The position numbers and the translations under genes are program-made. From the NCBI RefSeq assembly GCF_003337735.1, contig NZ_QPJY01000007.1:62001-126000 (forward strand): a stretch of DNA of 64,000 bases, written 5' to 3'. Source of the stretch: Thioalbus denitrificans. GTDB lineage: Bacteria; Pseudomonadota; Gammaproteobacteria; DSM-26407. The notes below the pieces were generated by a model. The model did no database searches. It worked only from the letters and a program-made list of their open reading frames with translations, and was not told where the DNA came from. Numbering within the stretch: the first letter of the stretch is position 1; every line of letters starts with the position of its first letter. This document shows positions 9,708-52,447 of this stretch, in pieces.

Positions 9708-9901
9708 ATCCGCAGATTGCGCAGATTACGCCGATTCATTTTAGCGGAGTTTGCCTCTGCTCCCGGTGGAAACCCGGGTACGGTGCCCGTGTCCGGACTT
9801 GCGCGCTGCGGGTGCCGCCGTAGTCGCCAGGAGGTCCAGTGGACGATCCGTGAGGGATCGTCCCCTCTGTGTAATCCGCGTAATCCGCGTAATCTGCGGA
9901 T
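9708..9901. repeat. Inverted nonamer element A (GCAGATTAC flavour), folP-glmM gap
   Basis: The left arm at 9708-9736 is three degenerate copies of a 9-bp unit close to GCAGATTAC. The right arm at 9871-9901 has three copies of the reverse complement (GTAATCCGC, GTAATCTGC). The arms could form one long, register-tolerant hairpin around a 134-bp GC-rich core without a convincing ORF. This element occupies most of the 310-bp gap between folP and glmM. Confidence 0.85.
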
Positions 9902-9981: not shown

Positions 9982-11328
9982 GTGAGCAACGGGAAACGCT
10001 ATTTCGGGACCGACGGGGTGCGCGGACACGTGGGCGTGCCGCCCATTACGCCGGACTTCGTGCTCAAGCTGGGCTGGGCCGCCGGGCGGGTGCTGGCCCG
10101 CGGCGGCCAGAGCCGGGTGCTGGTGGGCAAGGACACGCGCATCTCCGGCTACATGTTCGAGTCGGCCCTGGAGGCGGGGCTGTCGGCGGCGGGTGTCGAC
10201 ATCCTCCTGCTCGGGCCGATGCCCACGCCCGCCATCGCCTATCTGACCCGGACCCTGCGTGCCGATGCCGGCATCGTCATCAGCGCCTCCCACAATCCCC
10301 ATCACGACAACGGCATCAAGTTCTTCTCCAGCTCAGGGCAGAAGCTTTCCGATGAGTTGGAGCTGGCCATCGAGCAGCAGCTGGACGAGCCCATGACCAC
10401 GGTGGAGTCCTCGCGGCTGGGCAAGGCCGAGCGGGTGGTGGATGCGCCGGGACGCTACATCGAGTTCTGCAAGAGCACCGTGCCCATGCGCATGAGCCTG
10501 CGCGGGCTGAAGCTGGTCATCGACTGCGCCCACGGCGCGACCTATCATGTCGCGCCGAGCGTGTTCCGCGAACTGGGCGCCCAGGTCCGTGCCATCGGCG
10601 TGGAGCCTGACGGCCTCAACATCAATGCCGGTTTCGGCTCCACCCAGCCGGAAGCGCTGCGCCGCGGCGTGCGGGAGTGGGGCGCGGATCTCGGCATCGC
10701 CTTCGACGGGGACGGCGACCGGGTGATCATGGCGGACCGTAACGGTGAGCTGGTGGACGGCGACGAGCTGCTCTACATCATCGCCTGCGCGCGCCAGCGC
10801 AGCGGCGAGCTGGAGGGCGCCGTGGTGGGGACCGTGATGAGCAACCTGGGCCTCGAGGTGGCGCTGCGCGAGCGCGGCATCGAACTCACCCGGACGGCGG
10901 TCGGCGACCGCTACGTACTCGAGCAGCTGGAGCTTAACGACTGGACCCTGGGCGGGGAGTCCTCCGGCCACATTATCTGCCGCGACCGCACCAGCACCGG
11001 TGACGGCATCGTCTCCGCGCTGCAGGTGCTGGCCGAAATGGTGGCCACCGGCCGCCCCCTCGACGAGCTCCGGGCCGGAATGCGCAAGTTCCCCCAGCGA
11101 CTCCTGAATGTGCGGGTGGCGGAGCGTGGCGACCCGTGCGCCATCCCCGCGGTGACCGCGGCGGTGCAGTCGGCCGAGGTGCAGCTCGGCGCCCGCGGGC
11201 GGGTGCTGCTGCGCCCCTCGGGGACGGAACCGGTGATCCGGGTCATGGTGGAGGGCGAGGACGCCGCCGAGGTGGACGCCCTGGCCCGGACCATCGCCAA
11301 GGCCGTGGAGTCCGCCATGGCGGCCTGA
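9982..11328 (+). CDS. glmM: Phosphoglucosamine mutase
   Basis: GlmM converts glucosamine-6-phosphate to glucosamine-1-phosphate for UDP-GlcNAc, peptidoglycan and LPS. The 448-residue protein has the family's four domains: phosphoserine loop [12 protein letters not shown] (Ser103 is the phosphorylated residue), metal loop [10 protein letters not shown], sugar-binding GGESSGH and phosphate-binding [14 protein letters not shown] 9982 is chosen because GAGAGGGCAGG lies just upstream and the product begins [14 protein letters not shown] as in relatives; the earlier ATG 9952 lacks a site. It stands alone between repeat elements A and B. Confidence 0.97.
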
Positions 11329-11356
11329 AGACGCAGGGAAGGCCCGAAGGGCAAAT

Positions 11357-11582
11357 AGACAGGAGTTACAGGATTGACGGGATTATCTGGTCCCGGCTTC
11401 GCTGGGTTGCCGGAGAGCCTGGAGTGTGGGCCGGCAGCCCAGGCAGGTTCAGTGTGACAACCGGCAGCCTGTCAATTGCTTGTTCGCCGTCGGCACCCTC
11501 CGGGGATACCGGTTTCCGCATCAATCCTGTTCATCCTGTCAATCCTGTCTATTTTTTATCTTCTTCGTGCCTTCGTGGTGAA
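11357..11582. repeat. Inverted nonamer element B (ACAGGATTA inner, CACGAAGG outer), glmM-tpiA gap
   Basis: The left arm at 11357-11385 has units like ACAGGATTG and ACGGGATTA. The right arm at 11521-11551 contains three copies of the reverse complement (AATCCTGTT, CATCCTGTC), then an AT-rich spacer and CTTCGTGCCTTCGTGGTGAA at 11563-11582. That last module is the outer end found in elements C, E and G; on the left only a decayed version is visible near 11339-11351. The rest of the 362-bp gap shows no gene. Confidence 0.8.
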
Positions 11583-11690
11583 TGAACGACATGCCGGGGA
11601 GCCGCGCTGCGGAGGTCCGGGTCTTGTCAGTGGCGCGTTTCCACGGTAACATCCGCAGCCTTTCTGATGTAAGCGACGATGGAGTCAACG

Positions 11691-12449
11691 ATGCGCAAGC
11701 CCCTGGTGGCCGGCAACTGGAAGATGAACGGTACGCGTGAGAGCGCCCGTACGCTTCTCGACGGCATCAAGGCGGGCGCCATGGCGGTGAACGGTGCCGA
11801 TCTGGCGGTGTGCGTGCCCTACGTGTTCCTGCAGCAGGTCCAGGAAGCGCTCGATGGCAGCCCGATTGCCTGGGGCGGCCAGGATCTGAGCAAGGAGCCC
11901 AAGGGCGCCTTCACGGGCGACATTTCGGCCGCCATGCTGCTCGAGTTCGGCTGCCGCTTCGTCATCGTCGGCCACTCCGAGCGCCGGACCCTGCACGGGG
12001 AGAGCGACACGGAGGTGGCCGAGAAGACCGCCGCCGCCCTCGAGGCGGGACTGACCCCCATCGTCTGCGTGGGGGAGACCCTCGAGGAGCGCGAGCAGGA
12101 CGTCACCAACGACGTCGTCGGGCGGCAGCTGGACGCGGTCCTCGCCCGGGTCGGCTCCGCGGGCCTGGGACGCTGCGTGGTGGCCTACGAGCCGGTCTGG
12201 GCCATCGGCACCGGCCGCACGGCCACGCCGGAACAGGCCCAGGAGGTCCATGCCTTCATCCGCGCCCGGGTGGCGGCCGAGGATGCCGAGGTGGCCGGGG
12301 CTCTGAAGATTCTCTACGGCGGCAGCATGAAGCCGGACAATGCGGCCGAACTGTGCGCCAAGCCCGATATCGACGGCGGCCTCATCGGTGGCGCCTCGCT
12401 GGTGGCGGAAGACTTCCTGGCCATCGGCCGGGCCGCGGGCGGCAGCTGA
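11691..12449 (+). CDS. tpiA: Triosephosphate isomerase
   Basis: This 252-residue TIM barrel interconverts dihydroxyacetone phosphate and glyceraldehyde-3-phosphate. Active-site residues are visible: Asn9 and Lys11 in AGNWKMNGT, the His of IVGHSERR and the Glu of [11 protein letters not shown], plus the phosphate loop [12 protein letters not shown] 11691 has GGAG six bases upstream, whereas the in-frame ATG 11679 has no ribosome site. secG starts one base after the stop, so the pair forms an operon as in many Proteobacteria. Confidence 0.97.
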
Positions 12450-37262: not shown

Positions 37263-37553
37263 ATCACCACGAAGGCACGAAGGGCACGAAGAAAAGAAAA
37301 AGACAAAAACGATCTAACCGCAGATTACGCAGATTACGCAGATTAACGCAGATTTTTTCATGCCAACTGAACCGACTTCAGGCTGGCGGCGGGCACTGTT
37401 TATTCCAAGCCTCGGCAAGCCCGGTATTGAGAAGCGCGCCGATCTGCTTGCCGGACACTCGCTGTGAACACATTCCCATCTGCGTAATCTGCGTAATCTG
37501 CGGATAAACGTCTTTTCGCTTTTCTTCGTGCCCTTCGTGCCTTCGTGGTGAAC
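37263..37553. repeat. Inverted nonamer element C (CACGAAGG outer, GCAGATTAC inner), pnp-phaE gap
   Basis: The left arm (37263-37358) has three CACGAAGG-type units starting at TCACCACGAAGG, an A-rich linker, then four GCAGATTAC-type units. The right arm (37479-37553) mirrors it: GCGTAATCT units, T-rich linker, CTTCGTGCC units and CGTGGTGAAC. The core (about 120 bp) is similar to that of element E. Apart from the pnp terminator nothing else is visible in the 476-bp gap. Confidence 0.92.
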
Positions 37554-37649: not shown

Positions 37650-38765
37650 ATGGCGGATGGCAACGAGCGGGACAAGGGTCCGGGCCGGGACTGGGCCGAG
37701 GCGCAGCGCAAGTACTGGGACGCCTGGCTGGAGCTGAGCCGCCAGGCGCCCGAGGGCAGCCAGCCCTGGCAGCAGGCGCTGGAGGGCATGCTCAAATTCA
37801 TGGGCCCACCGGCCGGTGCGGGCACCACGGGGAGCGAGGTCAGCGATCGGCTGCTGGAGCAGGGCCGCGCGTTCTTCCAGTTCGGCGACGAGATGATGGG
37901 CCTGTTGCGCCGGATGCAGTCGGCGGCCCAGGCCGGCGAGGCCTGGCAGGCCCGGTTCGGCCAGGGGCTCGAGACACTGCGCGAGGGTTTCGGCAAGGCC
38001 GGGGAGCAGGCCGCCGGGGCGGCCCAGGGCGCCCTGGCCTTCTGGGGCCTGCCGCTGGATACCTGGAGACGGGTCTCCTCCGCCTTCTCCACCCTGCCGG
38101 GTGATTTCCTGGGTGGCCTGAAGAACGAGGGTGTCAGCCACCTCCACGCCGGTGTGGAACGCTCCCTGTCGGCCCCGGCGCTCGGCTATACCCGCGAATG
38201 GCAGGAACAGGCCCAGCATGGCGCCCGCCTGTGGCTGGATTACCAGAAGGCGCAGCAGGACTATGCCGAGCTGCTCGGGCACGTCAACAGCGCCGCCCTG
38301 GAGCGCCTCATGGCCCGCCTGGAGAAGATGGCGGAGGCGGGCGAGCAGGTGGACAACCTGCGCGGGGTCTACGATCTGTGGGTGGACGCCAGCGAGGAGG
38401 CCTACGCCGAGGTGGTGGCCACCACCGGGTACGCCGAACGCCACGGACGCATGGTCAACGCCCTGATGGCCTGGAAACACCACGCCCAGCTCATGAGCGA
38501 GGAGTTCACCACCGCGGCCAACCTGCCGGGCAAGCGCGAAATGGACACCGCCCACCGGCGCATCCAGGCCCTGCGCCGGGAGGTGAACGAACTGCGCGAG
38601 ACGGTGGCCATGCTGCAGGCGCGGCCCGGGGCGGGGGGCGCACCCGCGGAGCAACCGGCGGTGAAGAGTACCCGGACGCGCCCGGCGGAGAAAAAGGCCG
38701 CTCCACGCCGGAAGGGTGCCGCTGCAGCCGCCCGTTCCACCGCTTCCCGCAAGACCGACAAGTGA
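37650..38765 (+). CDS. phaE: Class III poly(3-hydroxyalkanoate) synthase subunit PhaE
   Basis: This 371-residue protein matches PhaE, the non-catalytic subunit of class III PHA synthases of purple sulfur bacteria such as Allochromatium. The N-terminus (WAEAQRKYWDAWLELSRQ) and the long alpha-helical body with VDNLRGVYDLWVDASEEAYAE are characteristic. A coiled coil (HRRIQALRREVNELRETVAML) precedes a Lys/Ala/Arg-rich tail of ~55 residues, which could bind DNA or granule surface. ATG 37650 has GCGGGGGA seven bases upstream. phaC follows 11 bases after the stop. Confidence 0.93.
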   Translation: MADGNERDKGPGRDWAEAQRKYWDAWLELSRQAPEGSQPWQQALEGMLKFMGPPAGAGTTGSEVSDRLLEQGRAFFQFGDEMMGLLRRMQSAAQAGEAWQARFGQGLETLREGFGKAGEQAAGAAQGALAFWGLPLDTWRRVSSAFSTLPGDFLGGLKNEGVSHLHAGVERSLSAPALGYTREWQEQAQHGARLWLDYQKAQQDYAELLGHVNSAALERLMARLEKMAEAGEQVDNLRGVYDLWVDASEEAYAEVVATTGYAERHGRMVNALMAWKHHAQLMSEEFTTAANLPGKREMDTAHRRIQALRREVNELRETVAMLQARPGAGGAPAEQPAVKSTRTRPAEKKAAPRRKGAAAAARSTASRKTDK

Positions 38766-38776
38766 GGAGCCGCGCC

Positions 38777-39844
38777 ATGTTTCCCATCACCCTGCGTCCC
38801 GACCAGATGGCAAAGGAACTGGCCGAGTTCGGCGAGAAGCTCACCCACGGCTCCCGCACCCTCGCCGGAATCGGCGACATCGAGGTGGGCGCCTGCGCGA
38901 AGGAAGTGGTCTACCAGGAGGACAAGCTCACCCTGTACCGCTACCAGCCGCGGGTGAAACAGCCGCACCCGGTGCCGCTGCTCATCGTCTACGCCCTGGT
39001 GAACCGCCCCTACATGACCGACCTGCAGGAGGACCGCTCGCTGGTACGCGGCCTGCTGGACGCGGGCCTGGATGTCTATCTCATCGACTGGGGCTATCCC
39101 GATGCGGCCGACCGGTTCCTGAATCTCGACGACTACATCAACGGCTACATCCGCCGCTGCGTGGACCGGATCCGCGCGCGCAGCGCGCAGGAGCGCATCA
39201 ACCTGCTCGGAATCTGCCAGGGCGGGGCGTTCAGCCTCTGCTTCAGCGCCCTGCACCCGGAACGGGTCCGCAACCTGGTGACCATGGTCACGCCGGTGGA
39301 TTTCCACACCCCCGACAACCTGCTCAGCCACTGGGTGCGGCAGATCGATGTGGACCTGCTGGTGGACACCCTGGGGAACGTTCCCGGAGAGCTGCTGAAC
39401 TGGACCTTCCTCACCCTCAAGCCGTTCCGGCTCACCGGCCAGAAGTACGTGGATCTCGTCAACATCCTCGAGAAGGAGGAGGCGGCACGGAACTTCCTGC
39501 GCATGGAAAAGTGGATCTTCGACAGTCCGGACCAGGCCGGGGAGGCCTTCCGCGAGTTCGTCAAGCAGTTCTTCCAGGACAACGGCCTGGTGAAGGGGAC
39601 GGTGGAAATCGGCGGCCGGCGGGTCGATCTGAAGGACCTGTCGATGCCGGTGTTCAACGTCTACGCCACCCAGGACCACCTCGTCCCCCCGGCCAGCTCC
39701 CTGGCCATGAAGTCGCTGGTGGGGACCCGCGACTACAGCGAGTTCGCCTTCCGCGGCGGCCACATCGGCATCTACGTCAGCGGCCGCGCCCAGAAGGAGA
39801 TCCCCGCCGCGGTGGCCGAATGGCTCAACGCCCGCAGCGGGTGA
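38777..39844 (+). CDS. phaC: Class III poly(3-hydroxyalkanoate) synthase subunit PhaC
   Basis: PhaC (355 residues) polymerises (R)-3-hydroxyacyl-CoA into storage polyester. The alpha/beta-hydrolase fold has the modified lipase box GICQGG with nucleophile Cys147, the catalytic Asp in VYATQDHLVPP and the His in FRGGHIGIY. The length of 355 residues is that of class III enzymes, which need PhaE encoded just upstream. No phaA, phaB or phasin gene is in the window. Element D begins ten bases after the stop. Confidence 0.96.
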   Translation: MFPITLRPDQMAKELAEFGEKLTHGSRTLAGIGDIEVGACAKEVVYQEDKLTLYRYQPRVKQPHPVPLLIVYALVNRPYMTDLQEDRSLVRGLLDAGLDVYLIDWGYPDAADRFLNLDDYINGYIRRCVDRIRARSAQERINLLGICQGGAFSLCFSALHPERVRNLVTMVTPVDFHTPDNLLSHWVRQIDVDLLVDTLGNVPGELLNWTFLTLKPFRLTGQKYVDLVNILEKEEAARNFLRMEKWIFDSPDQAGEAFREFVKQFFQDNGLVKGTVEIGGRRVDLKDLSMPVFNVYATQDHLVPPASSLAMKSLVGTRDYSEFAFRGGHIGIYVSGRAQKEIPAAVAEWLNARSG

Positions 39845-39853
39845 GGCTCCATT

Positions 39854-40041
39854 ATCCGCAGATTACGCAGATTACGCAGATTACGCAGATTAGGCTGGCA
39901 ACCAGTGGGCGGCAGGTGCTGGAACAGGATACACGGAGTTCCGGTCGGATGTGTTCGCAAGCACTTGTGTCTGGCAATCTGTCTGGATTCAACTCCGATA
40001 CAGGTAACGGCGTAATCTGTGTAATCTGCGTAATCTGTGGA
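39854..40041. repeat. Inverted nonamer element D (GCAGATTAC only), phaC-gcvH-like gap
   Basis: The left arm (39854-39892) has four near-perfect GCAGATTAC units; the right arm (40011-40041) has three reverse-complement units (CGTAATCTG, TGTAATCTG). There is no outer CACGAAGG module. Part of the core (39944-39976) resembles the reverse complement of the core of elements C and E (shared ATGTGTTC, GTGTC and GGCAA pieces). The right arm ends 13 bases before the next start codon. Confidence 0.9.
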
Positions 40042-40054
40042 AAACGATCAACAA

Positions 40055-40492
40055 ATGGCGACGGTACGTGGCTGCGACATTCCCGAGGCGCTCTTCTATG
40101 ACGTGGAGAGCAATATCTGGGCGCGTCCGGAGGCGGACGGCACGGTGACGGTGGGCATGACCAGCTACGGCTGCTGCCTGGCCGGTCCGCTGGTGGCCTT
40201 CACCCCGCGCCGGGTGGGCAAGGAGATCCGGCGCGGACGATCCTGCGCCACGGTGGAGTCGGGCAAGTGGGTCGGCCCCATCAACGCGCCGGTGGGCGGC
40301 GAGATCGTCGCGGTGAACGAACGGTTGCTGGACTCCCCGGGGACCATCAACCGGGATCCCTACGCCACCGGCTGGCTGCTGCGCCTGCGCCCCGCGGACT
40401 GGGCGGTCGAGTCCGCCGCGCTGCTGACCGGCGCGGCGGCACTCACGGAGTTCGAGCAGCGGATGGAGGAGGACGGCTTCGACGGCTGCTGA
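40055..40492 (+). CDS. GcvH-like lipoyl-carrier protein
   Basis: A 145-residue protein of the glycine-cleavage H family. The predicted lipoylated residue is Lys71 in ATVESGKWVGPINAPVGGE, set in the hammerhead beta fold with the Gly-rich return (GEIVAVNERLLDSPG). It is longer than typical H proteins at the C-terminus and has Cys pairs (YGCCLAG). ATG 40055 has no good ribosome site; GTG 40037 lies inside the repeat arm. No gcvT or gcvP is nearby, so it could serve glycine cleavage in trans or be a lipoate-binding protein of the sHdr sulfur-oxidation type. Confidence 0.8.
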   Translation: MATVRGCDIPEALFYDVESNIWARPEADGTVTVGMTSYGCCLAGPLVAFTPRRVGKEIRRGRSCATVESGKWVGPINAPVGGEIVAVNERLLDSPGTINRDPYATGWLLRLRPADWAVESAALLTGAAALTEFEQRMEEDGFDGC

Positions 40493-40503
40493 CGGGGCAA
40501 GCT

Positions 40504-40782
40504 TCACCACGAAGGCACGAAGCACACGAAGAAAAGAAAAAGCCAAAAGCGATCTAACCGCAGATTACGCTGATTAACGCAGATTTTTTCGTGCCAACTG
40601 AACCGTCTGAGGCTGGCGGCGTGTGCTGCTCATTCCCAGTCTTGGCAAGCCCGGTATCGGAAACGCGCCGGCCTGCTTGCCGGACACTCGCTGTGAACAC
40701 ATTCCCATCTGCGTAATCTGTGTAATCTGCGGATAAATCGTCTTTCCGCCTTTCTTCGTGCCCTTCGTGTCTCCGTGGTGAA
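40504..40782. repeat. Inverted nonamer element E (copy of element C architecture)
   Basis: The left arm begins TTCACCACGAAGG and has three CACGAAG units, an A-rich linker and three GCAGATTAC units (40504-40590). The right arm (about 40708-40782) mirrors it and ends CTCCGTGGTGAA. The core from GTGCCAACTGAACC to GTGAACACATTCCC is close to that of element C in sequence and length. This element fills most of the 364-bp convergent gap; the rest (40783-40856) shows nothing. Confidence 0.92.
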
Positions 40783-52184: not shown

Positions 52185-52447
52185 TTCACCACGAAGGCAC
52201 GAAGGACACGAAGAAAAGCGAAAAGACGTTTTTATCCGCAGATTACGCAGATTACGCAGATTTCCTGTTTGGGGCGTGAGTGCTTCTGTTCATGGCCCGG
52301 GCAGATTCCTGTCCGCTGCGTCAGCGGAACAGCTGGAGTGGCCGGGATTGTCAACGGGACATCCCGGCATCAAAGAACCTAATCTGTGTAATCGGCGTAA
52401 TCTGCGGATAGTTCCTTTCTTCGTGTCCTTCGTGCCTTCGTGGTGAA
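52185..52447. repeat. Inverted nonamer element G (CACGAAGG outer, GCAGATTAC inner) between convergent genes
   Basis: The left arm (52185-52262) has TTCACCACGAAGG, two more CACGAAG units, an A-rich linker and three GCAGATTAC units. The right arm (52379-52447) mirrors it and ends CGTGGTGAAC. The core differs from that of C and E and has its own hairpin (TCCGCTGCGTCAGCGGA). The element lies 28 bases after the permease stop and 25 bases from the stop of the convergent PhoH-type gene, and fills most of the 314-bp gap. Confidence 0.92.

Follow-up and report, generated by a model that had tools for sequence, protein, structure and literature searches.

The window, by which we mean the whole 64,000-nt stretch of Thioalbus denitrificans DNA that was analyzed, contains an ORF for a lipoate-binding protein that follows a pair of PHA synthase genes, precedes a fadL-like gene, and has an intergenic repeat element on either side (Table 1). 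The ORF is real, and its product carries the ESGKW lipoylation motif with Lys71 that had been read from the sequence originally. An alternative GTG start is possible at position 40037, giving a 151-aa form. The ATG at 40055 is preferred because the extra residues would be encoded by element D, which is missing in the sister species (genome G001).

Table 1. Coordinates in the window of lbpA2, its predicted key residues, and the neighboring features
Feature	Position	Strand	Description
phaE-like	37650..38765	+	Class III PHA synthase subunit E, upstream; PF09712, 268.6 bits
phaC	38777..39844	+	Class III PHA synthase subunit, upstream; TIGR01836, 547 bits; same order in L039 and also in G001
element D	39852..40044		Intergenic paired inverted repeat (pair 39858-40038); outside gene function
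lbpA2	40055..40492	+	LbpA2-type lipoate-binding protein, 145 aa; GCV_H (Pfam), 111 bits; LbpA2 clade 95/90
codon of Cys7	40073..40075	+	N-terminal LbpA hallmark cysteine (PMC6067878)
codon of Lys71	40265..40267	+	Predicted lipoyl site, ESGKW
codon of Cys145	40487..40489	+	C-terminal LbpA hallmark cysteine
element E	40503..40782		Intergenic nested inverted repeat (pair 40560-40730); outside gene function

The AlphaFold2 model of the protein (mean pLDDT 96.3) has the H-protein fold; in the PDB it is matched best by H proteins, the top one being the lipoylated E. coli H protein 3ab9 (TM 0.80/0.91). Fold and family are shared with GcvH, the glycine cleavage H protein. However, the protein falls below the cut-offs of both NCBIfam gcvH models (112.2 bits against 117, and 81.8 bits against 115.85), whereas the gcvT-linked GcvH of the same genome scores 181 and 169 bits. 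There are also weak matches to two families of GcvH-like proteins that are named apart from GcvH, not_gcvH (TIGR03077; 35 bits, cut-off 144) and GcvH_rel_desulf (NF045810; 51 bits, cut-off 150), and another protein of this kind, Streptococcus pyogenes GcvH-L (5a35), is at Foldseek rank 22 for the model. The original prediction distinguished the protein from H proteins by an extra C-terminal region of ~45 residues and a CC pair. There is no such region: GcvH models align up to residues 134–143 of the 151-aa form, and the protein is just 15 aa longer than the GcvH of its own genome (145 versus 130 aa). What distinguishes the C terminus is instead a tail whose last residue is Cys145. The CC pair (Cys40-Cys41) does exist, but it does not characterize the family; Cys41 is found in 2/27 LbpA2 proteins from genomes with no sHdrB1 found (hereafter sHdr-less) and in 0/82 sHdr-type LbpA2. 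The hallmarks are Cys7 and Cys145, neither of which the original prediction had pointed out.

According to passages of Cao et al. (2018; PMC6067878), LbpA proteins are marked by a lipoyl lysine and by a pair of conserved cysteines, one close to either terminus. All three marks, Cys7, Lys71, and Cys145, are intact in the window protein. Its placement agrees with the earlier assignment to LbpA. In a tree of 75 rows, GcvH is split from LbpA (100/99), and the window protein falls with its sister-species copy inside the LbpA2 clade (95/90), apart from the gcvT-linked GcvH of its own genome. LbpA1 shares the lipoyl lysine and adjoins LbpA2 in sHdr loci, but it forms a separate clade (99/96, with a related pair) and is 35–38% identical to the window protein. 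For this tree, the 82 sHdr-type LbpA2 were thinned to 21 rows and LbpA1 to 10. Rows dropped from the data set were L126 and L131 (duplicates of G046 and G178 contigs), L067 (identical with G001), and L097 and L107, whose type is ambiguous. Forcing the window protein together with its own-genome GcvH gives a tree that is 132 log units worse and is rejected by the AU test (p-AU 6.7e-8), and with it the reading of the gene as a GcvH paralogue. The AU test does not reject a tree in which the window pair sides with the 15 GcvH as a whole (p-AU 0.21), so the window protein could be the first LbpA branch. By sequence, it is an LbpA2 and not a stray GcvH. The LbpA assignment withstands both refuting conditions set for it originally, a tree position with the true GcvH and a lack of lipoylation machinery, as an sLplA-like ligase is present.

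The source genome (G000; 4.14 Mb in 21 draft contigs, 99.7% complete) contains three GcvH-type genes of full length, besides two matches that are short and weak. The full-length genes are a gcvT-linked gene on contig C16, a gene beside an lpd-like gene on C5, and the window lbpA2; there is no LbpA1 among the GcvH-type genes and no second lbpA2 in the genome. As had been noted, lbpA2 has no glycine cleavage partner nearby, in that no gcvT- or gcvP-like gene was recognized beside it; the gcvT-gcvH-gcvPA-like cluster of this genome is on C16. At locus L007 of the same genome, a third GcvH-like gene (10048-10422, minus strand) adjoins a dihydrolipoamide-dehydrogenase-like flavoprotein gene (10409-11851, minus strand), away from gcvT/gcvP. 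Could the window gene encode another GcvH, with a task in glycine cleavage or a lipoyl relay? Its fold and family would suit such a role, as would the rearrangements, not rejected, that place it first among LbpA. The role is nonetheless very improbable, given the rejected grouping with the own-genome GcvH, the two missed gcvH cut-offs, the presence in the genome of a full-scoring gcvT-linked GcvH, and the finding, in passages of PMC6067878, that published LbpA proteins were unable to replace B. subtilis GcvH.

The repeats that frame the gene were originally taken as a possible sign of a mobile or duplicated cassette. The frame itself is there, with repeat arms ~10–16 bp before the start codon and 10–12 bp after the stop codon, but it is incidental because the window has five paired elements, all intergenic (those of D and E, and others at 9712-9897, 37320-37501, and 52238-52405), and because D and E are missing at the G001 locus. 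The window contains the 17-nt repeat unit 19 times, where 0.00 occurrences would be expected by chance. In G001, the phaC-lbpA2-fadL order is identical with neither element D nor element E, and at the site of element E the sequence runs through uninterrupted. Thus, while elements 10–16 bp from each end of lbpA2 are what a cassette would predict, the sister-species comparison rejects this reading; together with the other intergenic elements and the lack of a second lbpA2 in the genome, it makes a cassette barely credible. Element D has replaced the sequence directly upstream of the start codon, so expression of lbpA2 is uncertain.

LbpA2 is known from the sHdr-LbpA system (PMC6067878; Tanabe et al. 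2023, PMC10332631), with which the window protein shares its clade, the lipoyl lysine, and the two terminal cysteines, and whose tusA/dsrE2 and lip neighbors are matched in relatives of the window protein. A reference sHdr locus, in genome G020, reads rhd-tusA-dsrE2-hdrC1B1A-hyp-hdrC2B2-lbpA1-dsrE3-lbpA2-lipS1-slplA-lipT-lipS2, with the window orthologue being the second lbpA. Single gene names in this locus follow the published gene order, and the Hdr, LipS1, LipS2, and ligase families match its proteins, mostly under curated cut-offs. The source genome differs from this system in three respects. First, a genome-wide search found no sHdrB1 at E ≤ 1e-3, nor was LbpA1 or LipS2 found, so the sHdr sulfur-carrier role originally proposed is not supported for this genome. 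Second, lbpA2 is outside any sulfur cluster: it is neither in nor beside an hdr-like cluster, its neighbors being phaC and fadL-like genes. Third, an sLplA-like ligase of the kind that the original prediction had asked after is present, but it is divergent and unlinked, on C3. Other sulfur genes are likewise dispersed. TusA and DsrE2 are on C6, near soxX and soxA, and the dsr cluster is on C2 (dsrA, 584 bits), so that lbpA2 (C7), tusA-dsrE2, the ligase, and the dsr cluster are on four separate contigs. SoxX, SoxA, DsrB, DsrE/TusD, DsrC, and DsrK were identified in the genome; the other dsr genes of the C2 cluster we take to be such from their order and length. A second tusA-dsrE2-like pair is found in the same genome (L059, 9557-10454).

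An sHdr that is present but was missed, through an assembly gap or because it is of a divergent type, would make the window gene an ordinary sHdr LbpA2. The draft assembly has 21 contigs, and HdrB1 was the sole hdr subunit searched genome-wide, both of which leave some room for this explanation. It is quite improbable all the same: the draft is 99.7% complete, no HdrB1 was found even at E ≤ 1e-3 when HdrB1 of other genomes shows 70–98% identity along most of the query, the genome likewise lacks LbpA1 and LipS2, and sHdrB1 is also missing in the LbpA2 genomes G310 and G211, which are single-contig or 100% complete.

How common is LbpA2 without sHdr? In a sample of 369 genomes of the same class, LbpA2 (called at E < 1e-45) is present in 35, with sHdrB1 present in 20 of these and not found in 15. 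Using a threshold of E ≤ 1e-60, dsrA was detected in 10/15 sHdr-less LbpA2 genomes, 4/20 LbpA2 genomes with sHdr, and 102/334 genomes without LbpA2. The first of these proportions exceeds the last (Fisher p 0.008, kinship ignored); three of the five sampled sHdr-less LbpA2 genomes without dsrA are only 72–81% complete. Conversely, LbpA2 was not found in 102/116 dsrA-positive sampled genomes. A scan of named genome contigs, from which the best 80 of 510 relatives were kept, gave 56 loci with hdr genes, 9 with only lbpA1 or dsrE3, and 15 with neither. In 13 of these 15, among the best 80 of 510, lbpA2 is together with tusA and lip genes, the usual order being (rhd)-tusA-(dsrE2)-lbpA2-lipS1-slplA-lipT-lipS2, and sox genes are often adjacent; the remaining pair comprises the phaC-lbpA2 locus of the sister species (L067) and a 3-kb contig (L137). 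No HdrB1 match (E ≤ 1e-20) was found in the genomes of the 14 hdr-free loci other than L067. The sHdr-type LbpA2 proteins number 82, i.e., 63 from the best-80 loci (56 with hdr genes and 7 for which lbpA1 or dsrE3 was the only cue), with another 19 from genomes that gave an HdrB1 match (G167 left out). Unique genomes with LbpA2 but no sHdrB1 number 27. A single clade for all sHdr-less LbpA2 is rejected (p-AU 1.2e-4), and sHdr state switches at least seven times across the LbpA2 portion of the tree. On this tree, LbpA2 without sHdr has arisen several times and persists. In the lineage of the window gene, LbpA2 was probably kept after sHdr had been lost.

Lys71, Cys7, and Cys145 are kept in 82/82 sHdr-type proteins, versus 22/27, 27/27, and 22/27, respectively, of sHdr-less ones; overall, Cys7 is kept in 111/111 LbpA2 compared. 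The lysine position is occupied by Val in G049, G187, and G291 and by Asp in G211 and G312, corresponding to two events on the tree. The best-80 locus set is biased towards lysine because one of the two search patterns contains ESGKW. In the 369-genome sample, which is pattern-free, the lysine is missing in 5/15 sHdr-less LbpA2 versus 0/19 of the sHdr ones read (Fisher p 0.009, computed with 0/20 and reflecting about two tree events). The lysine-less genes are at L045 9965-10402 (minus strand), L171 6020-6460, L172 3580-4017, L173 4340-4780 (minus strand), and L174 7712-8152, and in both lineages they still adjoin tusA. The two lysine-less pairs have dN/dS values of 0.15 and 0.10, unreliable because dS is >1, and lysine-less LbpA2 looks conserved by this measure.

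A profile of eight ligases found the ligase family in 22/22 lysine-keeping sHdr-less genomes (six of which contributed to the profile; the G186 match is cut by a contig end, and L128 has only a distant paralogue) and in 0/5 lysine-less ones. The same profile found it in 3/3 sHdr genomes and in 0/16 hand-picked dsrA-positive control genomes without LbpA2. The ligase of the source genome shares 60% identity with its G034 counterpart and 29–33% with the six linked sLplA; the sLplA-LbpA pairing in print concerns linked sLplA. According to passages of PMC10332631, LipS1/S2 are nearly always present in bacteria that possess sLpl(AB). If the divergent ligase counts as one, G000, G001, and G034 would be exceptions to this rule, as judged by LipS2.

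A relic, persisting without function after loss of sHdr and decaying, is an unlikely explanation for the window gene. Unlinking of lbpA2 from its usual partners, loss of the lip genes at the locus together with the missing LipS2, and loss of the lipoyl lysine in two other sHdr-less lineages would all be expected of a relic. However, dN/dS between the window lbpA2 and its sister-species copy is 0.19, indicating that the gene is under purifying selection, and the ligase is also kept (0.21). Moreover, all three marks are intact in this genome, dN/dS is low even for the lysine-less proteins, albeit at a dS of >1, and LbpA2 without sHdr has arisen repeatedly and persists.

What would LbpA2 do in such a genome? 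We favor, with a probability of roughly 55%, an LbpA2 that is kept in this lineage without sHdr, lipoylated by the C3 ligase, and used as a sulfane-sulfur carrier with TusA/DsrE2, with reverse Dsr (rDsr) as the likely end user. First, Lys71 would most likely be lipoylated by the unlinked sLplA-like ligase. Second, LbpA2 would act in the cytoplasm, exchanging sulfur with the TusA/DsrE2 relay encoded on C6; such an exchange is the simplest fit to the conservation of the key residues, the retention of the ligase alongside, and the repeated occurrence of the tusA-dsrE2-lbpA2 order. Third, the sulfur could be held by the lipoyl arm, by Cys7 and Cys145, or by both. Fourth, the sulfur would plausibly reach reverse Dsr via DsrEFH, DsrC, and DsrAB, where we infer the direction of flow as well as the route. 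Counting against this reading are the spread of the genes over four contigs, the divergence of the ligase from the linked sLplA for which the pairing with LbpA was published, and the uncertain expression of lbpA2. LbpA has been published as part of the sHdr system, where the role of its lipoyl group is a proposal: in the model put forward in passages of PMC6067878, sulfur is delivered by TusA, and the proposed task of LbpA is presenting this sulfur to the complex. A carrier that is kept without its complex suggests that LbpA2 also works with another partner.

Is rDsr that partner in general? Among the 27 sHdr-less genomes, dsrA is present in 18 and was not found in 9, including the cultured Ectothiorhodospira magna (L073). 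Since LbpA2 is also missing in most dsrA-positive sampled genomes, rDsr is not required as a partner of LbpA2 and does not suffice as one, and the 9/27 genomes without a dsrA match weaken the case for it as an obligatory one. Nor does LbpA2 behave as a component of rDsr: the window lbpA2 is outside the dsr cluster, and LbpA2 is not general in rDsr genomes. LbpA2 with neither sHdrB1 nor dsrA found occurs in L073, G370, G377, G381, G211, and G312. Tentatively, and at somewhat less than even odds, LbpA2 may be a general TusA-DsrE2 carrier that works without sHdr, with some lineages apparently having neither sHdr nor rDsr and two having no lipoyl group and presumably bearing the sulfur on cysteine.

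The split sulfur module has both its halves, tusA-dsrE2 (L058, 6363-10714) and lbpA2 (window 37650-40492), beside pha-like genes; those beside tusA-dsrE2 we take to be phaA/B/R/P-like. This arrangement is a hint that the module was once rearranged through a pha cluster. A role for lbpA2 in PHA metabolism is an improbable alternative: lbpA2 follows phaE-phaC, and both the phaC-lbpA2 order and the placement of tusA-dsrE2 beside pha-like genes are found in both genomes of the genus, but phaC is beside lbpA2 in none of the other 79 loci (best 80 of 510), and an earlier rearrangement involving the two halves would account for this layout equally well.

What are the implications of LbpA2 as a carrier without sHdr? 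First, sulfur oxidizers in which LbpA2 and its lipoylation genes are kept but sHdr was not detected would allow the job of the carrier itself to be separated from that of the complex. Second, lysine-less LbpA2 lineages are a natural test of the purpose of the lipoyl group. Third, genome surveys that infer sHdr from lbpA would have to be corrected. Text searches of open-access papers gave no description of LbpA2 without sHdr. Several of the sulfur oxidizers compared here also encode another ligase-like protein, more distantly related and in a longer open frame, for example, at G027:C7:15254-16288 (L207), and likewise at L208, L209, and L210.
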